Of a DNA stretch of 64,000 nt, positions 4,499 to 30,428 are shown piece after piece; positions within the stretch are counted from its first letter, which is position 1; each line of letters starts with the position of its first letter. This DNA is from Candidatus Magnetocorallium paracelense (GTDB taxonomy: Bacteria; Nitrospirota; Thermodesulfovibrionia; Thermodesulfovibrionales; Magnetobacteriaceae), in assembly GCA_029001845.1 (NCBI GenBank), contig JAREWP010000030.1, positions 1 through 64,000 on the forward strand, given 5' to 3'. The notes below the pieces were generated by a model that made no database searches, had not been told where the DNA came from, and saw only the letters and a program-made list of their open reading frames with translations. The position numbers and the translations under genes are program-made.

Positions 4499-5100
4499 AT
4501 GGAAAGCTTCGCAAAAGATTTTGTAACACTACTCCAATATCTTTTACCAGGGTTCATCGCTGCGTGGGTATTCTATGGTTTTACTTCATTTCCTAAGCCA
4601 TCTCAATTTAAAAGGGTTGTACAAGCCCTTATTTTCATTATTTTTATTCAGGCATTGGTATACATAATTAAAAGCATTTTATTGTTTGTTGGTAAAAAAT
4701 GGCCATTGTTTATTTGGAATTCACAATCTGTCATGATATGGTCAATTCTTTCAGCAATATTGTTAGGTCTCTTTTTTTCATATTTTGCTAACAATGACAA
4801 GATTCATAAGAAATTAAGAGTCTTGGGTGTTACACGGGAAACTTCTTATCGTCTGAGTGGTTTGGAGCCTTTCTTCAGAACATAACTTATGTAGTACTTC
4901 ACTTAAACGGAGAAAGGCGTCTTTATGGTTGGCCAAAAGAGTGGCCATCAGAGCCAGAAAAAGGACACTTTGTTTTAATACAAGCCTCATGGTTAGATAA
5001 GAATAATGATGAAATTCCCTTAACTGAGGTAGATTCAATAATGGTAGATGCAAAAGAAGTTAAAATGATTGAATTTATGGAAGAAACCTGGGAGGTATAA
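4499..5100 (+). pseudogene. DUF6338-like membrane protein with a one-base frameshift
   Basis: The first frame (4499-4885) encodes three hydrophobic segments, starting with FVTLLQYLLPGFIAAWVFYG, and then ANNDKIHKKLRVLGVTRETS. Just after ETSY (about 4849) the family-like sequence continues in another frame: SEWFGAFLQNITYVVLHL, RLYGWPKEWPSEPEKGHFVL and WLDKNNDEIPL, to a stop at 5100. Restoring one base before CGTCTGAG rejoins them as a normal ~200-residue DUF6338-like protein. This may be a true mutation or a sequencing error. The function of the family is unknown; the layout suggests a membrane anchor with a cytoplasmic beta domain. Confidence 0.6.
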
Positions 5101-5101
5101 A

Positions 5102-5227
5102 ATGGGTAAAAAAAGTTCAAATCCTCCGCCACCGCTACCGCAAAATCAAAAAGGTATTAATGAAGGGGCAAACGTGAATCCACCACCACCACCACCAGCA
5201 CCACCAGTACCAAAAAGGGAGAGTTAA
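5102..5227 (+). CDS. small proline-rich protein
   Basis: A 41-residue frame begins MGKKSSNPPPPLPQNQKG and contains a second run of prolines before ending in PKRES. It starts one base after the stop of the DUF6338-like gene, behind GGGAGG, which would serve as its ribosome binding site. Tight spacing and two polyproline blocks suggest a real co-expressed companion of the membrane protein. No enzymatic motif is present. Its function is unknown. Confidence 0.5.
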   Translation: MGKKSSNPPPPLPQNQKGINEGANVNPPPPPPAPPVPKRES

Positions 5228-5283
5228 CAAGTAAAAAAACTAGCTTGATATATAGGAAATTCAAAACAGTAGCAACTGTGAGA

Positions 5284-5355
5284 GTCACCTGCCTACAGGT
5301 GACCTCTGCGGTGCACTTGCAAGATGCCGCCGGTGGTCACCCGTGGGCGGGTGAC
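5284..5355. repeat. cluster of hairpins (REP/MITE-like)
   Basis: Two perfect hairpins flank a third imperfect one. GTCACCTG at 5284-5291 pairs with CAGGTGAC at 5296-5303, and GTCACCCG at 5336-5343 pairs with CGGGTGAC at 5348-5355. Between them GCGG and the TGCCGC box can pair. The two outer stems share the GTCACC half, as in tandem palindromic repeats. The block sits where the 5' end of the next gene would be expected. Confidence 0.5.
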
Positions 5356-5383
5356 TCCCACAATTAAAGTCCGTACGAAGCAG

Positions 5384-5674
5384 ATGATATCTGAAACCCT
5401 TTTTCACTATCACCAAGATGGCGAAATCATTTCGGCAGATTATGATGGTGGAAGCATACGGAAAGGTCATTTATTAGGAAAAATGATAGAGAATGGCAAT
5501 TTGGAATTTACTTACCACCATATCAATATTGAAGGGAATTTAATGCTCGGTAAGTGCACTTCAGTACCGACTTTATTAGCAGATGACAGATTAAAGTATT
5601 CAGAACAATGGCAATGGATCACTGGTGATAAATCAAGTGGAAAATCAGAAATAATTGAAATTGACAGCGTATAG
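5384..5674 (+). CDS. small beta-rich protein (family often annotated N-acetylglutamate synthase), N-terminus probably lost
   Basis: The frame from the ATG at 5384 gives 96 residues: MISETLFHYHQDGEIISADY, then GHLLGKMIENGNLEFTYHH, GKCTSVPTLL and QWQWITGDKSSGKSEI. I recognise this as the small beta-barrel-like family that databases often label N-acetylglutamate synthase without biochemical support. Family members usually have some 15 more residues before this point. Here that part is replaced by the hairpin cluster ending at 5355, so the gene may be 5'-truncated. The frame is open back to 5324 through repeat sequence. Function unknown. Confidence 0.5.
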   Translation: MISETLFHYHQDGEIISADYDGGSIRKGHLLGKMIENGNLEFTYHHINIEGNLMLGKCTSVPTLLADDRLKYSEQWQWITGDKSSGKSEIIEIDSV

Positions 5675-5825
5675 CCTATAACAAGAGACTATACGTGTAG
5701 AAGGTAACTGAAAATGGAACATAACAGCCCTTAGGCATTATGAGGGGAAAAATGACTAATTTCAGGGTTGAACAGGGACAGTCAAACCATAGGAGTTACT
5801 AAAGGAATTTTATTATTGAAGCAAA

Positions 5826-6707
5826 ATGTCATTTGGACGAAGCATAAGAATTTATCTCTCAGATGGTTCTCCGTCAGGGCTAAGGTATGTAGAAATCGCC
5901 AATTGGTCAGGACAGGCAGTTGCATGCCCAAGAAGTAGATTCTCGGAACTGTCCAACTGGGAAGAGGCTCAAAGACCTGGAGTCTATTTTCTTTTTGAAC
6001 ACCATTCCACGGATGATAGAAATACTGTATATATCGGTGAAGCGGAAGATGTTCTAAAACGTCTTCATGACCATGACAGAAAGCGGGATTTTTGGAATGA
6101 GGTTATAATCTTTTCCAGCAAAGATGAAAACATGACTAAAGCGCATATCAAGTATCTTGAAGCCAGGTTGATCGATTTATCAATACAAGCAGACAGGTAT
6201 TCACTTGCAAATAATAATTCCCCTCGACAATCGTCGTTACCTCGCGCAGACAAGGATGCGATGGAAGAATATATCCATAATATTAAGATGATATTGGGGA
6301 CATTAGGACATAAACTGCTGGAACCTTTGAACTCACTTGTGAAAACCGAATCAGAAGAAAATTCCGCAACTTTGATCGGAAGGCATTTCTACTTTACAGT
6401 CAATAAATTAGAAGCAATCGGACAGCAATCCGATGAAGGTTTCATCTTATTGGAAGGTTCTCATATATCAAAGGATACAACCAAAAGCATTCCGGAGAAG
6501 ATCTCGCAGTTAAGAAGTAAATTGCTGTCCGATGGTGTTATCAACGACGACGGGGTAAAGTATATATTAACTAAAAATATGCTTATCAGTTCATCTTCAT
6601 ATGCAGCGGCGCTGGTAGCAGGAACAAGGAGGAGCGGCCCTCAAAGCTGGAAGACAAGGAATGGGGAGTCTCTAAAAGAAATAGAAGAAAAGTTAATTAA
6701 AACATAA
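5826..6707 (+). CDS. GIY-YIG nuclease family protein with DUF4357 domain
   Basis: Residues ~50-130 hold a GIY-YIG-like nuclease core. GVYFLFEH and TVYIGEAEDVLKRLHDH carry the two Tyr/Gly motifs and the Arg of the helix, and IKYLEARLI supplies the metal-binding Glu. The C-terminus, ISSSSYAAALVAGTRRSG to WKTRNGESLKEIEE, is a DUF4357 domain. This combination is common beside restriction-modification genes, and here a Mod-type methyltransferase follows 90 bases downstream. It is 293 residues long, uninterrupted, and may be the only intact enzyme of the damaged locus. A DNA target is inferred, not shown. Confidence 0.75.
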   Translation: MSFGRSIRIYLSDGSPSGLRYVEIANWSGQAVACPRSRFSELSNWEEAQRPGVYFLFEHHSTDDRNTVYIGEAEDVLKRLHDHDRKRDFWNEVIIFSSKDENMTKAHIKYLEARLIDLSIQADRYSLANNNSPRQSSLPRADKDAMEEYIHNIKMILGTLGHKLLEPLNSLVKTESEENSATLIGRHFYFTVNKLEAIGQQSDEGFILLEGSHISKDTTKSIPEKISQLRSKLLSDGVINDDGVKYILTKNMLISSSSYAAALVAGTRRSGPQSWKTRNGESLKEIEEKLIKT

Positions 6708-20117: not shown

Positions 20118-20226
20118 AATGTCATTAACTTAAAGAGCAAAGCACCTTCCGCCTTCAGCGGCTAAACTCGAAGGCTCCGCTTCGCTGCTCCTTTTCAAAC
20201 ATGACCCGCTTCCGTCGGAAGGTGCT
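20118..20226. repeat. direct repeat, copy A, with long inverted arms
   Basis: From AATGTCATTAACTTAAAG at 20118 to about 20190 the sequence matches 42294-42366 at nearly every position. Copy A also has inverted arms, AGCACCTTCCG near 20140 and CGGAAGGTGCT ending at 20226. It covers the 3' end of the flavodoxin gene and supplies its last codons. Confidence 0.65.
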
Positions 20227-20900
20227 TCAGCCCTTACTGTCTCCTCAGGCGGAACAACGGTCTGGGAACTCGATACAGTATCCATCTCCTCTCCAAAAGA
20301 GAGAGCCTTCTCTTTATCCATATAGTTCCAACTTTCCAGTTCCTTGCGAAGGTATACCCTGTAGAATTTTTCAAGGGCTTTACGGTCTTCAGGGGTGAGT
20401 TTTTCAACCGTCAATCTGCCGCCAAAGTGTTGTGACAGCGGAGGTTGACTTCTTAATCGGCTGTTTATTTGATCAAGATAACGTGAGATTCTTTTTCTAC
20501 TGCTTTCATCCTCTCCTCTGCTTCCGCATACAACAAAGGAAGCGAGTACTCTGCCATCTAAAAGACTGCTCCGGGACTGAAGAAAACTTTTTAACTCTTT
20601 ATGAATTCCGGCTTTCCAAATTCCCGATCCGAAAACATAAGAATCATATTCTCTGGTCAGTCTCTTGACATCGGCTTTTTCAATGTCGATCACATCTACC
20701 ATTCTGTTCATCCCCTCAGCCATCCATATAGAAGTCTCCATTGTGGAACCATACTTTGTTCCATATACAAGTGCAACCTTACCGTCACCTTCTTTTAAAA
20801 AATTCGAAAGAGTACATCCGAAATTAAAGGCCGGGAAAGACAATACACTTAATCCGATCTTTTTAAGAAACTCCCGTCTGTTTGTATGATTGCTCATCAC
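20130..20900 (-). CDS. Tat-exported flavodoxin-domain protein
   Basis: The N-terminus NRREFLKKIGLSVLSF has the twin-arginine RRxFLK motif followed by a hydrophobic stretch and FGCT, which could be a lipobox. Export by Tat and lipid anchoring are therefore likely. The body is a flavodoxin of the HemG-like group: FMN phosphate loop VYGTKYGSTMETS, then FGSGIWKAGIHKELKSFL and LASFVVCGSRGEDES. The last ~35 residues (SDGSGSCLKRSSEAEP and on) are encoded by a repeat element and are unlikely to be native. It lies 36 bases after a permease gene on the same strand, suggesting a shared task, perhaps redox-linked. Confidence 0.7.
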   Translation of the reverse strand: MMSNHTNRREFLKKIGLSVLSFPAFNFGCTLSNFLKEGDGKVALVYGTKYGSTMETSIWMAEGMNRMVDVIDIEKADVKRLTREYDSYVFGSGIWKAGIHKELKSFLQSRSSLLDGRVLASFVVCGSRGEDESSRKRISRYLDQINSRLRSQPPLSQHFGGRLTVEKLTPEDRKALEKFYRVYLRKELESWNYMDKEKALSFGEEMDTVSSSQTVVPPEETVRAEAPSDGSGSCLKRSSEAEPSSLAAEGGRCFAL

Positions 20901-20936
20901 TGCTGTCTGAAAGTTTGAGGGTAAAGCCTTGCGTAC

Positions 20937-22640
20937 CTACTCTCCCTGTCGTATGGCCCTGTAAGGCTCCATTCCGGCTGCCTTAAAAGCCGGGTAGATT
21001 CCGGCGCAGAGACCTATAAAAAGGGACAGCACCAGCGAAAAAAAGAGCACGCCTGTAACTGTCTTGAATGAAGGCCATATATAAAGAAGCTCCAGGGCGG
21101 ACATGATAGTGTTTTTAAAGAACATGATAAGGGTGCTTCCCAAAATGACGCCGAATATGCCGCCGGTGAGAGTAATCATCAGGAGTTCATAAATAATTAT
21201 CCTCGACATATCGCTCTTTTTCGCTCCCATTGCCCTGAAAAGCCCTATCTCTCGTTGCCTCTCATTTACAATCATACTGAATATCATGCTCAATATAGTC
21301 GTACCCATGAATATCAGTACAAGAACAGGAAGTATAAAGCTCCCGGTAATTGACATGATCCTTCTCTTTACTGTTGCCGTAGATTTCCTAACCTCGATGA
21401 CATCAATGTTAGGAAATCTCTCCTCTATCTTCTCGCTTACCTTATTGATCGATGCATTATCGGCTGTTTTTACAAAGATCGAGGAAACACCGTCAGGCTC
21501 AATCTCTGCAATTGGCATTGCTTCTTCTTCCTCTGAGGCGAACATGTGGGAAAAGGACATGTCACGCACTTTTTTTCTGCGTCTTAACTCATTATCGATA
21601 TCCTTGCCGGTAAGGTTTTTTAAAATATGCCTTGCATATTCAAGTGTGATAAAAGCTGAATTGTCGAAATAACCAAGCCCTGTGGAGTCGAGACCGGCTG
21701 TGATTTCAAAATTTCTTCCGAATATTTCAAGCTTCTGGCCGGGATAGAATTTAACGAGATTACCTATTACGATCTCATCCTCTCCGGGACTCTCTTTAAT
21801 GTAGTATTGAATCCAGGGGGTAATGGTGAAATCGGTGTCAGGGTCATAAGCTATGATAAGAAAATTTTCCATTGTACAACATACCAGGTACGAAAAGGGC
21901 TGTAGATAGAGTTGAGGGGAAGCCTGTTCCACTCCTTCGATGTCTCTTATACCATCGAGAATATTCTCCTCCATATAAAACATAGTGGGTCCTCCGCTGA
22001 GTAAAACCGTTTCTCCGTCTTTCAGTTTACCCTTCGGGACGATCATCAGGTCCGCTCCCAATCTTCCGGCCCCCAGTTCAAGGGCGCTCTCTATGCTTTT
22101 ATTAAGTAGTAAATATGCAAAAAAGACTCCTGTGACAATAGAGATACTCAATATCAAAGAGACAGAACGAAAAACTCTTTTGCCTGTATTGGCGTATGAA
22201 ATTCTCAGAGGACTTAACACGGTGACATTCCTCTTTGACTTCTTAAAAAAAGAAAACAGCAGAGGTATACACATAACAAGAGCCAAAGAAGCGATGGTCT
22301 TCTCTATCCACAGATGCTGTCCCAGAGAAACCTTCTGACCCCACACCCGTAAAGGATCGGCTGACTGAATGTAATAACTTACAGGCTGAAGAGTAAGGGC
22401 GTGTATAAAAGTAACGACAGCCAGAGGGAAGATAAGATATAATGCGTTTTTATATTTAAAAGAAAATGTCCCCGCTATTATTGTTACAAACCCCAAAAAA
22501 AATTCCATATGGTACAGGACTGAGCATTCAGACAGAGCTTGGGCGCCGTCATTACCCTGAAAGTAACTCAAAGGCAGCACAAAATGAGGGACAATGAGCA
22601 TTAAAAGTCCGATTATTATTAAAAACAGCGAGCCGGCCAT
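20937..22640 (-). CDS. FtsX/MacB-type ABC permease with N-terminal DUF4418-like membrane domain
   Basis: Residues 1-135 hold four hydrophobic segments (IIIGLLMLIVPHFVLPL, FFLGFVTIIAGTFSF, LIFPLAVVTFIHAL and the one near 120) and look like DUF4418. From ~160 the protein is a MacB/FtsX-like permease: one helix, a large periplasmic domain (ELGAGRLGADLMIVPKGK to KRRIMSITG), then three C-terminal helices with QREIGLFRAMGAKKSDM. Such permeases move lipoproteins, peptides or metals with a separate ATPase. No ATPase gene is adjacent, which is unusual. The flavodoxin gene follows. Confidence 0.75.
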   Translation of the reverse strand: MAGSLFLIIIGLLMLIVPHFVLPLSYFQGNDGAQALSECSVLYHMEFFLGFVTIIAGTFSFKYKNALYLIFPLAVVTFIHALTLQPVSYYIQSADPLRVWGQKVSLGQHLWIEKTIASLALVMCIPLLFSFFKKSKRNVTVLSPLRISYANTGKRVFRSVSLILSISIVTGVFFAYLLLNKSIESALELGAGRLGADLMIVPKGKLKDGETVLLSGGPTMFYMEENILDGIRDIEGVEQASPQLYLQPFSYLVCCTMENFLIIAYDPDTDFTITPWIQYYIKESPGEDEIVIGNLVKFYPGQKLEIFGRNFEITAGLDSTGLGYFDNSAFITLEYARHILKNLTGKDIDNELRRRKKVRDMSFSHMFASEEEEAMPIAEIEPDGVSSIFVKTADNASINKVSEKIEERFPNIDVIEVRKSTATVKRRIMSITGSFILPVLVLIFMGTTILSMIFSMIVNERQREIGLFRAMGAKKSDMSRIIIYELLMITLTGGIFGVILGSTLIMFFKNTIMSALELLYIWPSFKTVTGVLFFSLVLSLFIGLCAGIYPAFKAAGMEPYRAIRQGE

Positions 22641-22861: not shown

Positions 22862-24082
22862 ATGAAGACGGGCAATTTTAATATTGAAATACTCAGAGAT
22901 GGAGAAAATGTAAGAGTTCTCTTTACAGGCAGACTCGACTCCATTAATGCCGTAAAAGTACAAAAAATGTTCGATACCCTTGTTGACGATGGCGAACGAA
23001 CTATAATCGCCGATTTTACGGAAGTCAGCTATATCAGCAGCGCAGGTCTCAGGGTGTTTATCATTATCCAAAAAAAACTTGGACCTGTAAGCGGAGAAGT
23101 AATTATTTACAACCCCCCCGAACATGTTTGCAACGTTATTAAGGTAAGCGGCCTTGACAATGTTTTTACAATCTTATCGGCGGATCAGGCCATTCCGGAA
23201 GACCGTGATGGTCACGGCAGTCGGAGAACAGAGGTTTTTGAAGGGATCTCTTTTGAATACAGATATATTTCCAAAGAGAAAGGAAAGCTCACTTTTTTCG
23301 GACAGGGAGAAAAGCTCAGACACTCGACTTATACCCGGGAAGATGTCGTTGAGAAAAAAATCTCCGACTTAAGCTTTGGCGCGGGCATTGCTGCATCGGG
23401 AGAGGAATATGACGAATATTCCCGTCTTTTCGGTGAGGCGATGATAGTGGATGGTAATTTTTTCTTTTACCCCACTGTCAGCAACCCCGTTGTAGACTTC
23501 ATACTGCAAAAACACGGCGCCAAAAATAATAAACTGAAGTTTCTTCATGGTTTCTCTTTTTCAGGTCCCTGGAGCTATATTCTTTCTTTTGACGATCGTA
23601 ACGCCTTTATTGACCTTCCACGGTTAAAAAAGGCAGTTTTTAATTTCATAAAAGGCAATCTTCTTGGTATCGTATTTCTCATCGAAAGTAAAGGATATTG
23701 GGGAATGAGCCTGAAAAAGTCTCCTGTAATCGAAAACCGCACGCCCCAAGGAGAGACCATTTTTACTCCCCGCCTTTTCCCCGGTTGGTTCGACTATCCT
23801 GTCGAAGCGGGAGAGAGTAACCATATTATTGTAGGTACAGGAATTGTTGCAAGAGATTCTGACTGTGTTGACGAAAAACTGAAATCTCTGTTTCCGGAAA
23901 AAAGTGATATCCACATCCATGCCGGAATATTCGAAAAGGGCTATATCAGCAGGAAGGTCGAGGATTTCGAAAAAGAGCTCGATCGACTACTAAACGGACA
24001 TGGACCAAAAGCGATTTATCATCTCCTGGAAAAAACCCGTCTAAAGAGCGGTCTTATGGGAATCGTAGAACTGGAAAGGTAA
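22862..24082 (+). CDS. STAS-domain protein with unknown C-terminal domain, linked to ABC transporter
   Basis: Residues ~3-110 form a STAS domain of the anti-sigma-factor-antagonist type. FTGRLDSINAVKVQKMF is followed by VSYISSAGLRVFIIIQKKL, in which the Ser before AGLR is the usual phosphorylation site. Residues ~130-406 form a second domain that I do not recognise, with aromatic and beta-rich sequence such as FLHGFSFSGPWSYILSFDD. The stop codon is immediately followed by the ATG of the giant ABC protein, so both are co-translated. A regulatory or coupling role for the transporter is inferred from position. The ATG at 22862 was chosen over the TTG before it. Confidence 0.75.
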   Translation: MKTGNFNIEILRDGENVRVLFTGRLDSINAVKVQKMFDTLVDDGERTIIADFTEVSYISSAGLRVFIIIQKKLGPVSGEVIIYNPPEHVCNVIKVSGLDNVFTILSADQAIPEDRDGHGSRRTEVFEGISFEYRYISKEKGKLTFFGQGEKLRHSTYTREDVVEKKISDLSFGAGIAASGEEYDEYSRLFGEAMIVDGNFFFYPTVSNPVVDFILQKHGAKNNKLKFLHGFSFSGPWSYILSFDDRNAFIDLPRLKKAVFNFIKGNLLGIVFLIESKGYWGMSLKKSPVIENRTPQGETIFTPRLFPGWFDYPVEAGESNHIIVGTGIVARDSDCVDEKLKSLFPEKSDIHIHAGIFEKGYISRKVEDFEKELDRLLNGHGPKAIYHLLEKTRLKSGLMGIVELER

Positions 24083-27000
24083 ATGGAACTCTGGATTGGT
24101 GCATTAAACCTCGGATTCTTATACTCATTCATGGCAATGGGTGTCTACCTGACATTTCGTATCCACGATTTTCCCGATATAACTGTAGACGGCTCTCTTA
24201 CAACGGGCGCCGCTGTTTCGGCAGTACTGCTTGTCACCGGAATGCATCCGCTCCTTGTATTTCCATTCGCCTTTGGGGCAGGAGCGATCGCCGGTGTGGC
24301 CACAGCCATGATCCACACCCGCTTCCATATCAATGGACTACTCTCCGGAATACTTGTAATGACCGGACTCTATTCAATAAATCTTCACATAATGGGACAA
24401 TCCAACATTCCGTTACTGAGAGAAGAGACGTTTTTTTCATGGCTTAACGCCGTAAATCCCGGTTTCCGACAGGAAATATGGTTATTCATAATTCTATTGG
24501 TTGTCATCTTTCTTTTTTGGCTTCTCTTTTCCTACTTTTTCAAGACCGACCTGGGTATAACCATGAGGGCGACCGGTAATAACTCCGTAATGGTTTCGGC
24601 CTCAGGTGTAAACGTGGATTTGATGAAGATTTTTGGTATTGCTCTCTCTAACGGTCTTGTGGGCCTGAGCGGGTGTCTGGTCGCTCAGTATCAGGGGTTT
24701 GCAGATATCGGCATGGGAATAGGGGCCGTTGTATTCGGGCTCGCCTCTGTGATTATCGGAGAATCCATTGTGCGCAGCCGTTCTGTTCAGGTAATCGTTT
24801 TAAGCGTTATTGCAGGTTCCATCGTTTTCAGACTGATGGTGGCCCTGGCCCTTTATGTTGGTCTTAACCCCATTGATCTGAAACTCATAACAGCGATATT
24901 TGTACTTGTCACTCTCATATTTTCCCGTTTCATGGCTAAAGGCGCTGCTGTTAAAAAGAAGGAGTGGTCCAAAGGATTTGTCTATGGCTTTATCTGCATT
25001 GCCATCCTTTCCGGGGGATATATTGTCTGGAAGGAGTATGGGACCAAAAACAAAAATTCTGCTCGACGTTCCTATAACATGACCGATCGTGTCTCCGGTG
25101 AAACTTCCGATAAGCCTGCCGAAAAAAGATACAAGATCGGCCTCGTACAGATTGTGGATCATGCTATTTTAAACCTTTCCCGTGACACCTATAGAGAGGA
25201 ATTAAAAAGACTGGGTTATATAGAGGGAGTAAACTTAGATATCGATCTGAAAAACGCACATGGAGATATTGCTTCCGTCAATACGATCCTCGACAGTTTT
25301 GTAAACGATGAAGTCGACCTTGTTTTAACGATTTCGACCCCCTGTACACAAGCGGCAATTAATAAAATCAAAGACAGGCCGGTTGTTTTTACAACTGTAT
25401 CGAATCCTTTTGTCATCAATGCAGGTGAGAACGATGTGGAACATCTCCCCAATGTTACCGGTGTGTACGGTTGGGTGCCTATGGAAAAACTAATGGACAT
25501 TGTGGCTACAACCCTTCCCGATTTTGAAAAGATTGGCATTCTTTGGAACGAGTCTCAGGCGAATTCGGTTTTTAACGTGAAAATGCTAAAAAAGGTTTTA
25601 AAGGAGCAATATCCTGAAATTACTTATTTCCCCGGCATTGTTTCAAATGCATCGGAAGTGTATGAACATGCCCTCTCTTTTGCGTCAAAGGGGATAGACG
25701 CCTTTGTTCTCCCCCCTGACAACACGGTTTATTCCGCTGTCGATGCCGTTGTCAAAGTAGCTGAAAATCATAATATTCCAATATTTATGAGCGATATTTT
25801 AAAGGCGGAAAACGGCGTTTTGGCCTCTGTGGGGTATAACTATGTGTTAAGCGGAATTCAGGCCGCACGTCTTACGGACAAAATACTGAGAAAAGGAGAA
25901 AACCCGAAAGACATCCCTTTTCAGCGTTATACAGGCCTTGAAACGACTGTGAATCTCGATATAGCACGGAAACTGAATATATCCATACCTGAAGAATTCG
26001 TAAAGAGGGCCGATATTGTCATTGACAAAGGGAATATCTTAAAAAGAGAGAGACGAAAGAAGGTTGGTATTGTCCAGTTTGCCCTTGAACCCAATGTGGA
26101 AAGAGCGAAAAAGGGGATCCTTGCAGCCCTTGAAGATAACGGCTACTTTGACGGAGTGAATATCGATATTATTTATAAAAACGCCAATGCCGACTTTCCT
26201 GCCATCACCTCGATTATACAGGATTTAATGAGAAGAGAAGTCGACATCATCGTACCTCTCTCTACGCCCGTTGTTCAGGCAAGCGTCCAACAGGCCCATC
26301 ACAAGAGGGGACAAAAGATCGTTTTTACCTATATTTTCGACCCATACAGAATAGGGGCTGCGAAAAGCCCGACGGATCACTTGCCAAACATGACCGGAGT
26401 CTCCTCTTTTCCGCCTATAGAAAAAATGCTGGATTTGATTAAAGATATATTTCCTGACAGAAACAAGATAGGAGTGGTTTGGAACAGTTCGGAAGCGAAT
26501 TCGGAGTCCGTACTTCTAAAGGCAAGGGCCTATGCAAAAACCACCGGGCAGGAGTTGATGGAGGCCACTGTAAGCAATCCCACCGAAGTGTTGGACGCTT
26601 CCAGAGCCCTTGCCGCAAAGGGAGCTGACGTATTTCTCAATCCCGGAGACAATACATTAAATGTCAGTTATGACAGTTTCGCCAAAACGGCTAATGAGAA
26701 TTCCATACCTCTCTTTACGATCGATCCCGATTTTATAGATAACCACACTTTGGCAGCTTTGGGTCCCGATTATTATGTAACCGGATATGAAGGTGGACAG
26801 GTTGTCGTAAAGGTGTTGAATGGTGAGAACATCGCCGACATACCTGTTACACAAACAAAAGAAACAGTGCTTTTTCTGAACCTCGATACGGCGCGTACAT
26901 TAGGGCTTTCCATTCCCCAAAGATTCATTAAGCGAGCTGACAAGGTTATCGATTCCCAACGTTCTCCGCCGGTATCTGCAAAAGAAGAATCACCTAAAAC

Positions 27001-27898
27001 AATGGCGATTCTTCAATTTTCCGATCACTATATTCTCGACATTATTGTAGAAGGTGTTTTCGAGTATTTTAACGAAAAGGGAATTCTTGCGGAGTATAAC
27101 TTATCGGTGGACAGGCTGAATTCACAGGGGGATTTCGGTATTGCCCGGACAATTGCTCAGGATATTGTGAGAAAGAAGTACGATTATGTGATGACTGTAT
27201 CGACCCCATCGCTTCAAGTCGTTGCAAATACAAATAAAACCATTCCCCACATATTTGGCGGTGTTACTTCGCCATATAAAGCAGGTGTCGCAGACACACC
27301 GGAAAAACATCAGGAGAATCTGACAGGCGTGGCTACTCCCCAGCCCGTGGCGGCTTCCATACAAGCCATGAGAGAACTCTTTCCAAAAGCAAAGACAATC
27401 GGTTTGGTCTGGAATCCGGCTGAGGCGAATTCCGAAGTATGCACCATAAACGCCAGGGAGGCAGCAAAAAAATACGGTTTTGATCTTATGGAATCCACTG
27501 TAAGCAGCACGGGAGAAGTCATGGAGGCCGTAAACTCCCTTATTATCCGAGGTATTGATATTTTTCTTACCTCAGGTGATAACACCGTTATCCTTGCTGT
27601 AGAGTCTGTTGCTGATTTAATGAAGCGTAAGAAGATTCCCTACTTCACAAACTCCTCGACAGATATTGAGAAGGGCGCTTTTGTCTCTATTGGAGCGGAC
27701 TACAGAGAGGTTGGTGTGGAAGCAGGCCGCATTGCCGAAAGGGTCATCAAAGGAGAAAAAACATCGGAGATACCTATAAAGGAGTATGTACCGGAAGAGA
27801 TCAATATCAATCTCTCTATGGCTGACCTGTATGGAATTACGGTGTCAGAAGAATTTTTAAAGAGATGTTCAAAGGTGATTTCAGAAAAAAATGATTAA
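24083..27898 (+). CDS. ABC permease fused to three tandem substrate-binding domains
   Basis: Residues 1-~290 are a multi-helix permease of the TrpXYZ/branched-chain type (FRIHDFPDITVDGSLTTGAA; LGITMRATGNNSVMVSASGV; FGLASVIIGESI). A helix near 300 leads out, then three ABC_sub_bind-type domains begin at about 350 (KIGLVQIVDHAILNL), 659 (KVGIVQFALEPNVERA) and 972 (TMAILQFSDHYILDI). Each has its own ligand-pocket elements, such as TISTPCTQAA, PLSTPVVQAS and TVSTPSLQVV. In ordinary systems the binding protein is a separate single domain. Here 1271 residues carry permease and three receptors in one chain. The ATPase overlaps its last eight bases. Substrate unknown; aromatic amino acids are a family-based guess. 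Confidence 0.85.
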   Translation: MELWIGALNLGFLYSFMAMGVYLTFRIHDFPDITVDGSLTTGAAVSAVLLVTGMHPLLVFPFAFGAGAIAGVATAMIHTRFHINGLLSGILVMTGLYSINLHIMGQSNIPLLREETFFSWLNAVNPGFRQEIWLFIILLVVIFLFWLLFSYFFKTDLGITMRATGNNSVMVSASGVNVDLMKIFGIALSNGLVGLSGCLVAQYQGFADIGMGIGAVVFGLASVIIGESIVRSRSVQVIVLSVIAGSIVFRLMVALALYVGLNPIDLKLITAIFVLVTLIFSRFMAKGAAVKKKEWSKGFVYGFICIAILSGGYIVWKEYGTKNKNSARRSYNMTDRVSGETSDKPAEKRYKIGLVQIVDHAILNLSRDTYREELKRLGYIEGVNLDIDLKNAHGDIASVNTILDSFVNDEVDLVLTISTPCTQAAINKIKDRPVVFTTVSNPFVINAGENDVEHLPNVTGVYGWVPMEKLMDIVATTLPDFEKIGILWNESQANSVFNVKMLKKVLKEQYPEITYFPGIVSNASEVYEHALSFASKGIDAFVLPPDNTVYSAVDAVVKVAENHNIPIFMSDILKAENGVLASVGYNYVLSGIQAARLTDKILRKGENPKDIPFQRYTGLETTVNLDIARKLNISIPEEFVKRADIVIDKGNILKRERRKKVGIVQFALEPNVERAKKGILAALEDNGYFDGVNIDIIYKNANADFPAITSIIQDLMRREVDIIVPLSTPVVQASVQQAHHKRGQKIVFTYIFDPYRIGAAKSPTDHLPNMTGVSSFPPIEKMLDLIKDIFPDRNKIGVVWNSSEANSESVLLKARAYAKTTGQELMEATVSNPTEVLDASRALAAKGADVFLNPGDNTLNVSYDSFAKTANENSIPLFTIDPDFIDNHTLAALGPDYYVTGYEGGQVVVKVLNGENIADIPVTQTKETVLFLNLDTARTLGLSIPQRFIKRADKVIDSQRSPPVSAKEESPKTMAILQFSDHYILDIIVEGVFEYFNEKGILAEYNLSVDRLNSQGDFGIARTIAQDIVRKKYDYVMTVSTPSLQVVANTNKTIPHIFGGVTSPYKAGVADTPEKHQENLTGVATPQPVAASIQAMRELFPKAKTIGLVWNPAEANSEVCTINAREAAKKYGFDLMESTVSSTGEVMEAVNSLIIRGIDIFLTSGDNTVILAVESVADLMKRKKIPYFTNSSTDIEKGAFVSIGADYREVGVEAGRIAERVIKGEKTSEIPIKEYVPEEININLSMADLYGITVSEEFLKRCSKVISEKND

Positions 27899-28703
27899 AA
27901 TAGAAAACCTGCATAAGACATTCAATCCCGGGACGATTAACGAAGTGTATGCACTCAGGGGTGTTGACTTCCATGTAAAGGAAGGTGAATTCGTCACCAT
28001 TATCGGCACAAACGGGTCCGGTAAATCGACACTTCTTAATGCAATCGCCGGAAACTTCCTTCCCGACAAAGGAAACATAGTGATTAACAAGACAGATGTC
28101 ACTCGACATAAAGACTACCGGCGGGCGAAACATATTGCCCGTGTTTTTCAGGACCCCTTTAAAGGTACGGCGCCTGACATGTCCATCGCCGAAAACCTGC
28201 TCATCTCTCACTTGAGAGGTAAGCCCCGTTATCCAAAGATTGGTCTGCAAAAAGAGCTGAAAAACTCATTTCGTGAAAAGGTGCAGTACCTGGAAATGGA
28301 CCTCGAAGATCGTCTTGACAATATTATCGGTTCCTTATCGGGAGGACAACGTCAGGCTTTAACATTACTCATGGCAGTTCTCGAAAAACCAAAAGTCCTC
28401 CTCCTTGACGAACATACGGCCGCTCTCGATCCTAAGTCCGCTGCCCAGGTCATTAAGCTGACAAACAAGTTTATTAAAGAGGACAAACTGACTGCCGTCA
28501 TGGTCACCCACAGTATGCAACAAGCCCTTGAGTTGGGGAACAGGACGATTATGATGCATGGCGGAGAAATCATTGAAAACATCAATGAATCGGAAAAGCT
28601 CCGTATGACAACCGATGACTTCCTGAACCGCTTTGCGGATATACGAAAAAGGGAAAAACTGAACGATGAGCTGATAACCCGACTCAGTCAGGAGTATTGT
28701 TAA
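27891..28703 (+). CDS. ABC transporter ATP-binding protein of the triple-receptor system
   Basis: A 270-residue ATPase with Walker A GTNGSGKSTLLNAI, signature LSGGQRQALTLLM, Walker B VLLLDEHTAALD and the switch His in VMVTHSMQQAL. It resembles the TrpY/YtsC-like ATPases that partner with ABC_sub_bind receptors. Its start overlaps the end of the permease-receptor gene by eight bases, so STAS protein, permease-receptor and ATPase form one operon. It should energise import through a dimer with two copies of the giant protein. Confidence 0.9.
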   Translation: MIKIENLHKTFNPGTINEVYALRGVDFHVKEGEFVTIIGTNGSGKSTLLNAIAGNFLPDKGNIVINKTDVTRHKDYRRAKHIARVFQDPFKGTAPDMSIAENLLISHLRGKPRYPKIGLQKELKNSFREKVQYLEMDLEDRLDNIIGSLSGGQRQALTLLMAVLEKPKVLLLDEHTAALDPKSAAQVIKLTNKFIKEDKLTAVMVTHSMQQALELGNRTIMMHGGEIIENINESEKLRMTTDDFLNRFADIRKREKLNDELITRLSQEYC

Positions 28704-28901: not shown

Positions 28902-30428
28902 ATGGCGATTGAATATTTCACTATAGGGCTTATAGCACTGGGATTGCTTATCAGGCTCGTGTATTTTAAAGATATCAGAAATCTGTCCAAATCCGCCAGG
29001 ATTACTTTCGAGTGCAATAAAGAGGGGCTCGAGCTCTATATAGATGACAAGCCGAAAGGAAAAAAACTGAATCAGGTAATCGTGCAGCCCGGCAATCACA
29101 ATGTAACTCTGAAAAAAACCGAACCTGACAAGAGTTTTTATATTTATAAAGGAACGTTAAATATCAAAGAGGGGGAGCATAAAGCAATAAAGGTGATTGC
29201 AGAGAAAGTCTTCCCTGAAGAGTATTATTGGGACAGGGCCATAACCGAGGACACTATCCAGGAGTATGAAAAGTATATAGATAAATATCCGGAAGGCGTG
29301 AACTTCAAGGAGGCCACAGGAAAACTCGAGGATCTCTATTTTAAGGAGACCAAAAACAGCATAGAAGGAAGCGAAGCTTATCTAACGAAGTATCCTTTTG
29401 GCCAGTATATAAAAAAGGTTAAATCAAAAATGGAGGACCTCTATTTTGCTCAATGCGATACTTTCGCCGGATGCCGGACGTACTATGAGAAATATCCAAA
29501 GGGCAAACATGTAAACTCGGAAAAGATTAAAAATGCTATTTCAAGGCTTTCAAACCTTGAGTACGAATTTTTTCTGACACTTAAAGGCCATACAGGGCCT
29601 GTTTATTCCATAACCATCACCGATAAAAAGATCATATCCGCCTCAGGGGACAACACACTGAGGGTATGGGATTTGGCTACAGGCACTTTTATGGCCGCCT
29701 TATCGGGTCACACGGACAGTGTCACATCTGTCGCCTCTTTGGGAACGAAAGTTGTTTCCGGCTCCGATGACGGCACAGTAAAGTATTGGAATTTGGAGTC
29801 TCTCAACCCTATTCATACAATTAAGGCCCACGATGAGAGTGTCCATGCAATCGCCGCAACTACCGACAAAATAGTCTCCGGCTCTCTGGACACGACGATT
29901 AATATATGGGAGGTCAGCTTTGGTAAACTCGTTCATACACTGAAAGGCCACAGAGCAAGCATCTCTTCTATCGTCATATTGGACGATAAAATTATCTCCG
30001 GCGATTCCACCGGTGTAATGAATATTTGGAATCTGGCCAGCGGCAAGCTTATAAAGACCATACAGGCCCATAATGACAACATTCCGGCCCTACTTGTTAC
30101 AAATAACTCCTTGTTGTCGGGATCATGGGACGATACAATCAAAATATGGGATAAAAACACCTTTGTACAGAAGCAGGCTATTCAGTGCAACGCGACAAGG
30201 GTGTATTCGCTGCAATTGATAGATAAAGATATTTTTGCAGGGTGCATAGACGGTGCTGTGAGAATTTATGATTTAGAAACAGGTGAGATGCTGACTTTTC
30301 TTAAAAAAGGGACTCCCGGTACGATTTATACTATTCAGCATGTCAATAACATATTGCATACAGGTTCATTTGACAGTAATATAAATATGTGGAGGCATAT
30401 TGCCAGTAAAGAGCGTGTGGAATTTTAA
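28902..30428 (+). CDS. membrane-anchored WD40 repeat protein with PEGA-like domain
   Basis: The first ~20 residues form a membrane anchor (YFTIGLIALGLLIRLVYF). Residues ~25-100 resemble a PEGA domain (ITFECNKEGLELYIDDKPKG). A helical segment of three repeats about Tyr-x-x-Lys-Tyr-Pro follows (YEKYIDKYPEG; YLTKYPFG; YYEKYPKGKH). From ~225 to the end there are about seven WD40 blades, for example TLKGHTGPVYSITITDKKI with GDNTLRVWDLATG. This would make a beta-propeller scaffold for protein binding. It stands alone between the ABC operon and rsmI. Its partners are unknown. Confidence 0.8.
   Translation: MAIEYFTIGLIALGLLIRLVYFKDIRNLSKSARITFECNKEGLELYIDDKPKGKKLNQVIVQPGNHNVTLKKTEPDKSFYIYKGTLNIKEGEHKAIKVIAEKVFPEEYYWDRAITEDTIQEYEKYIDKYPEGVNFKEATGKLEDLYFKETKNSIEGSEAYLTKYPFGQYIKKVKSKMEDLYFAQCDTFAGCRTYYEKYPKGKHVNSEKIKNAISRLSNLEYEFFLTLKGHTGPVYSITITDKKIISASGDNTLRVWDLATGTFMAALSGHTDSVTSVASLGTKVVSGSDDGTVKYWNLESLNPIHTIKAHDESVHAIAATTDKIVSGSLDTTINIWEVSFGKLVHTLKGHRASISSIVILDDKIISGDSTGVMNIWNLASGKLIKTIQAHNDNIPALLVTNNSLLSGSWDDTIKIWDKNTFVQKQAIQCNATRVYSLQLIDKDIFAGCIDGAVRIYDLETGEMLTFLKKGTPGTIYTIQHVNNILHTGSFDSNINMWRHIASKERVEF

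Follow-up and report, generated by a model that had tools for sequence, protein, structure and literature searches.

A triple-receptor ABC permease fusion with a STAS-domain partner and its possible control by partner switching

Aromatic amino-acid importers of the TrpXYZ/CD0873 type are built from a receptor (family PF04392), a permease (TrpY) and an ATPase (TrpZ), and the same three families make up the system described here. It was found in a stretch of 64,000 nucleotides from Candidatus Magnetocorallium paracelense (contig JAREWP010000030.1, positions 1 to 64,000), hereafter the window. Tandem receptors fused to an ATP-binding cassette (ABC) transporter are already known from GlnPQ (PMC8025302). 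An association between an ABC transporter and a STAS protein is known from the Mla system, in which Tyr and Leu residues from a C-terminal extension of the ATPase MlaF reach into its contact surface with the STAS protein MlaB. The predicted phospho-site of MlaB lies within that surface, and binding is weaker when the STAS site carries a phosphomimetic (PMC7367683). No kinase is known for MlaB; how it is controlled was left open in the work on the MlaFB structure, with phosphorylation as the authors' suggestion (PMC7367683). On/off control of bacterial ABC transporters after their synthesis is poorly known.

The locus comprises three genes, encoding a protein with a STAS domain and a second domain, here called X (STAS-X), a permease fused to three receptors, and an ABC ATPase. 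We hold with moderate confidence that it encodes an ABC importer regulated by partner switching through docking of STAS-X on the ATPase. More tentatively, we suggest that it represents an undescribed class of transport and signalling systems spread over several phyla. In such a class the ATPase of a multi-receptor ABC complex would be the direct target or the input of an RsbW/SpoIIE switch, by way of a STAS–decarboxylase-fold protein, and three ancient receptor types would serve ligands other than amino acids. The features are as follows.

22862-24082, plus strand: STAS-X gene, 406 aa, STAS plus a domain of predicted acetolactate decarboxylase/PTD012 fold (Pfam STAS 4.5e-12; AlphaFold2; Foldseek)
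22910-23173, plus strand: STAS domain, residues 17-104, nearest folds RsbV and SpoIIAA (Pfam, Foldseek)
23039-23041, plus strand: codon of Ser60 of STAS-X, presumed position of the phosphorylatable Ser of SpoIIAA/RsbV (homologue alignment)
23225-24079, plus strand: X domain, residues 122-406, with conserved FGE (E192), D212, H351-x-H353 and H387 (alignments, Foldseek)
24083-27898, plus strand: fused permease and three receptors, 1271 aa (open reading frame, Pfam, home-made profiles)
24083-24952, plus strand: TrpY-like permease domain, BPD_transp_2 (Pfam, permease scans)
24974-25030, plus strand: extra transmembrane segment, residues 298-316 (hydropathy/linker comparison; model helix 292-333)
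25118-26035, plus strand: receptor 1, gamma type, residues 346-651 (profiles, tree, pocket mapping)
26051-26968, plus strand: receptor 2, beta type, residues 657-962 (profiles, tree, constrained tree, pocket mapping)
26990-27892, plus strand: receptor 3, alpha type, residues 970-1270, the type closest to canonical TrpX (profiles, tree, pocket mapping)
27891-28703, plus strand: ABC ATPase, 270 aa, with Walker A, LSGGQ and Walker B intact (Pfam; motif scan)
28623-28700, plus strand: C-terminal tail of the ATPase, ending in Tyr plus one residue, candidate STAS docking site (tail comparison)

The ATG at 22862 is the likely start of STAS-X. Since the stop codon of STAS-X directly adjoins the permease start (TAAATG) and the ATPase begins 8 bases inside the fused gene, the three genes look like one transcription unit. 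A first-pass annotation, made from the letters of the window, had described a permease carrying three receptors that start near residues 350, 659 and 972, preceded by a STAS gene with an unrecognised second domain and overlapped downstream by the ATPase. This layout was borne out in all its parts. The frame is open over the full 1271 residues, Pfam placed BPD_transp_2 at residues 7-276 (7.3e-26) and three ABC_sub_bind stretches after it (8e-160), and the profile boundaries given above agree with the proposed receptor starts; the part of STAS-X outside its STAS domain had no Pfam match. Neither was an MCE gene found among the three operon genes, and the permease was matched by Pfam as BPD_transp_2, not as MlaE. 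A dimeric transporter of this kind would carry six receptors.

A scan with the permease alignment, one genome per species, gave at least 540 relatives, from which the best 80 loci were kept and sorted by home-made profiles for permease, receptor, ATPase and STAS-X; counts among them are proportions and not prevalences. Three sets of loci were seen. In the first, receptors are fused to the permease: one receptor in seven loci (L054 being cut by the contig end), two in nine (with a broken second receptor in L061), and three in five loci besides the window, all in separate assemblies (L047, L050, L056, L059, L068). The possibility that separate genes had been joined by a sequencing error, as the first-pass annotation allowed, or by an assembly error was ruled out by these orthologous three-receptor fusions, beside which independent one- and two-receptor fusions exist. 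STAS-X lies directly upstream in every fused locus where the contig permits the check; in L059 a 641-aa open reading frame (4545-6467), without a Pfam match, stands between STAS-X and the fused permease. In the second set STAS-X is present, the permease is unfused, and one to three tandem receptors are carried by a separate protein that is anchored in the membrane at its N-terminus. Several Bacteroidota operons (L081, L096, L104, L123) have several separate receptor genes, with up to five receptor domains per permease. The third set consists of canonical systems with one separate receptor and without STAS-X, mainly from Actinomycetota and Bacillota. Fused permeases form a single clade in the permease tree (22 rows, support 99, one change), so the fusion probably arose once. 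Within the phylum of the window the family is patchy, since among 396 sampled genomes a close permease was found in one genome besides the window's own and the X domain in six; two genomes of the organism's own family carry canonical single-receptor systems. Spread on plasmids was considered and rejected, the PLSDB matches spanning only about 2 kb, the length to be expected where receptor and permease are separate genes; the fusion was not seen among the matches listed. In the related genomes of L051 (6873-10084) and L057 (4130-7326) three inserted genes separate the fused permease from the ATPase; their products are of about 274, 204 and 587 aa, and the N-terminus of the third is MinD/ParA-like. 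The inserted proteins of L051 had no Pfam match at 1e-5. Among the single-receptor relatives, that of L053 belongs to the cultured Desulfoferrobacter suflitae DRH4. We found no published description of a fused multi-receptor/STAS-X system in a literature of incomplete coverage, so the fusion did not prove to be a common, described architecture, as the first-pass annotation had allowed it might, and its novelty is provisional.

In all fused proteins an additional hydrophobic helix separates the permease from the first receptor (approximately residues 298-316 in the window), and the unfused permeases inspected by hydropathy and linker comparison end before its position. The AlphaFold2 model of the fused protein shows a long helix at 292-333, a flexible linker and then a confidently predicted receptor. 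The receptor fold matches 3LFT, 3LKV and 6HNI. The extra helix, following the permease, would place the receptors outside the membrane. Identity among the three receptors within the protein is 30-36% versus 58-64% between species at the same position, and as judged from this difference the receptors are old, separately conserved domains; a recent tandem duplication was ruled out on the same figures. A tree of 147 receptor domains contained position-specific groups common to fused and separate systems. The fused third receptors grouped with the separate first (support 99) and the fused first with the separate third (93). The fused and separate second receptors were not joined in the first tree, and the constrained tree joining them was 24.7 log-likelihood units better (p-AU 0.77). 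Because the groups span both architectures, the tree places the origin of the three receptor types before the split between fused and separate systems, with their order reversed between the two. In the tree, canonical TrpX, VC_1101 and CD0873 are close to the fused-third type.

Pocket residues were mapped from the contacts of Streptococcus suis TrpX and CD0873, namely T108, A127, T129, D152 and N233 in the numbering of PMC9382623. T108 and N233 are kept in the three receptors of the window and mostly kept across relatives, and D152 is replaced by G, S and T and A127 by T, Y and G. Among receptors associated with STAS-X, position 152 is Asp in 3/121, versus 19/20 in canonical systems after removal of one duplicated locus. 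The pocket residues by position are T/A/N/G in first receptors, Y/F/D/C in second and variable/T/D/T in third receptors, which suggests that the ligands differ from receptor to receptor. The amino group of the ligand is typically held by an Asp in pockets of this kind, and the almost constant loss of that Asp suggests that the ligands are probably not plain alpha-amino acids. The earlier remark that the receptors have diverged and may bind different ligands is thereby strengthened, both by the position-specific clades and by pocket residues conserved across phyla. A degenerate, TGA-interrupted gene for an ABC_sub_bind receptor was also seen on contig C77 of the window genome (L004, L044 5507-6490), and is a likely pseudogene.

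The STAS-X protein was aligned with 55 homologues, 56 rows with that of the window. Ser60, which we take to be the equivalent of the SpoIIAA/RsbV phospho-site, is Ser in 55/56 rows. The X domain has no Pfam match in the window protein or across the 55 homologues, and its invariant residues are G147, G175, GE191-192, D212, P288, G327 and H351-x-H353. In Foldseek searches with the AlphaFold2 model (pLDDT 92) the STAS part was matched to RsbV/SpoIIAA and the X domain to acetolactate decarboxylase (E 1.6e-8, TM-score 0.66 on target) and PTD012 (5.5e-7), so that an acetolactate decarboxylase/PTD012 fold is predicted. An hhalign comparison with acetolactate decarboxylases, for which genes from phylum members were used and none were found in Brevibacillus relatives, gave a probability of only 7.6%, with FGE aligned to the decarboxylase DGE motif. 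A metal site at HxH is plausible. A PP2C-like X domain was found to be unsupported by fold or Pfam. The combination of STAS with a decarboxylase-like fold is a new protein family, the second half of which has no Pfam name.

A conserved tail on the ATPase accompanies STAS-X. This tail, which terminates near residue 270 in Tyr plus one residue, or in one row in the Tyr itself, is of one kind on all 56 ATPases (56/56) of STAS-X systems. Only 2/24 ATPases without an adjacent STAS-X have it, those of L111 and of L122, where the contig begins at the permease; it is absent from L090, which has tandem receptors without STAS-X.

When the genes around 59 STAS-X loci were clustered, a single dominant group recurred, across 30 loci, made up of SpoIIE phosphatases, RsbW-type kinases (PF13581, beside small STAS genes), small STAS proteins and histidine kinases. 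The input domains of the SpoIIE proteins are Cache/HAMP, Tll0287, receiver or GAF. SpoIIE genes occurred in 17/48 STAS-X loci, where the density of SpoIIE genes in each genome would lead one to expect 0.44 (nominal P about 1e-23, with loci treated as independent and flank lengths approximate), and in 18/56 STAS-X loci versus 0/24 other loci (Fisher 0.0009, confounded by phylogeny). L043 carries on one strand a run of seven genes for receptor, STAS-X, permease, ATPase, Tll0287-SpoIIE, RsbW and STAS, and L070 and L091 contain the same parts, but there the switch genes lie upstream. Away from the operon, the window genome contains four strong SpoIIE genes. The one on contig C12 (G000:C12:17482, L148), which has a histidine kinase as neighbour, is about 50% identical to a receiver-SpoIIE pair that adjoins fused systems in L055, L062 and L063, and the one on C74 (G000:C74:89791, L147) shares 50% identity with the Cache-HAMP-SpoIIE of L070. 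Both phosphatases are candidate partners in trans.

Taken as a regulated importer, the system could work in the following way. As a receptor-dependent importer of the TrpXYZ/CD0873 superfamily, it would have three diverged, membrane-tethered receptors feeding one permease, so that a single pump may serve up to three related ligands, probably other than plain alpha-amino acids. STAS-X would set the activity or the assembly of the importer. Its unphosphorylated STAS domain would dock on the ATPase at the conserved C-terminal tail, an RsbW-type kinase would phosphorylate Ser60 and thereby release STAS-X, and a sensor-driven SpoIIE-type phosphatase would restore the docking form. The decarboxylase-fold domain, with its probable metal site, may sense or process the imported compound. 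The kinase and the phosphatase for the window system would be encoded away from the operon.

Several observations weigh against this reading. The window operon has no adjacent kinase or phosphatase gene, and SpoIIE lies within 7 kb in only about a third of the STAS-X loci. The tail is present in L111, where no STAS-X was found upstream, and could be explained by shared ancestry. For the X domain, sequence support for the fold is weak, as the hhalign value indicates, and the next conserved His follows HxH by 34 residues versus about 11 in the three-His site of decarboxylases. Finally, STAS-X homologues occur without ABC genes nearby, alone in L143 (6687-8021) and beside SpoIIE, RsbW and a small STAS gene in L144 (6639-7958), L145 (7102-8383) and L146 (3589-6183), so the transporter need not be the main target. 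The last of these speaks for a complex that is mainly a ligand sensor (transceptor). In such a complex STAS-X would be sequestered or set free by receptor occupancy and the ATPase cycle, which would act, through the kinase/phosphatase switch, on a sigma factor or another output. Such a sensor, which we regard as unlikely, is also favoured by the dominance of small STAS, kinase and sensor phosphatase genes among the recurrent neighbours and by the loss of the amino-acid pocket Asp; against it stand an ATPase and a permease that are both intact, phosphatases that already carry sensor domains of their own, and the neighbour clustering, which brought out no sigma factor that constantly adjoins STAS-X loci.

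The TrpY-like permease and the NCBIfam name of the receptors, TrpX, would instead suggest a plain importer, in which several aromatic amino acids are bound by three TrpX-like receptors and the STAS protein acts as an MlaB-like assembly chaperone free of phospho-control, as MlaB itself is without a known kinase (PMC7367683). We consider this improbable in view of the absence of Asp152 from all three receptors and from nearly all relatives, the enrichment of SpoIIE and the invariance of the STAS serine. The strong match of NF041285 (a TrpX equivalog) to the fused protein, obtained in spite of the missing pocket Asp, is high because three domains add up, and should not be read as tryptophan specificity; the automatic tryptophan-binding name, disfavoured by the pocket residues, is likely wrong. 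Least probable of all is that X is a metal-dependent decarboxylase or hydrolase which processes the imported compound and is merely positioned at the transporter by the STAS domain, an idea in keeping with the predicted fold and its invariant GE, HxH and one more His, but at odds with the spacing of that third His, and leaving both the Ser invariance and the SpoIIE/RsbW neighbours unexplained.

About 200 bases downstream of the ATPase, on the same strand, lies a gene for a WD40 repeat protein (28902-30428), which did not emerge as a recurrent neighbour of homologous operons. On the minus strand, divergent from the operon, 20130-22640 holds an FtsX/MacB-type permease and a flavodoxin-like gene, apparently unrelated.

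A STAS partner of a transporter encoded beside a matching phosphatase and kinase makes the idea of phospho-control of MlaB-type regulators directly testable. The loci also provide a natural gradation in which the same pump bears one, two or three receptors, and their pocket residues speak against the known ligands. Compared with TrpXYZ/CD0873, which have one separate receptor, the receptors of the window are triplicate and fused to the permease; Asp152 and other contacts are changed, and STAS-X and the ATPase tail are additional. GlnPQ likewise carries several receptors on one translocator polypeptide, and these differ in specificity (PMC8025302). Its two receptors are on the N-terminal side of a permease of another family (PMC8025302), whereas here one to three follow on the C-terminal side after an extra transmembrane segment, in the BPD_transp_2/ABC_sub_bind family. 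With MlaFEDB (PMC7367683) the system shares a STAS protein encoded together with an ABC transporter, a C-terminal extension of the ATPase and a conserved Ser/Thr at the STAS phospho-site, but it lacks MCE and MlaE, and its STAS protein is a two-domain protein with links to a SpoIIE phosphatase and an RsbW kinase. As in SpoIIA/Rsb modules, a phospho-Ser STAS protein, an RsbW-type HATPase_c_2 kinase and a SpoIIE phosphatase occur together in relatives; unlike in those modules, they form a single gene run with an ABC importer, and no sigma factor was identified. The X domain is like acetolactate decarboxylase and PTD012 (C11orf54) in its predicted fold and HxH motif, and differs from both in having almost no sequence similarity to them, another spacing of the third His and a fusion to STAS.

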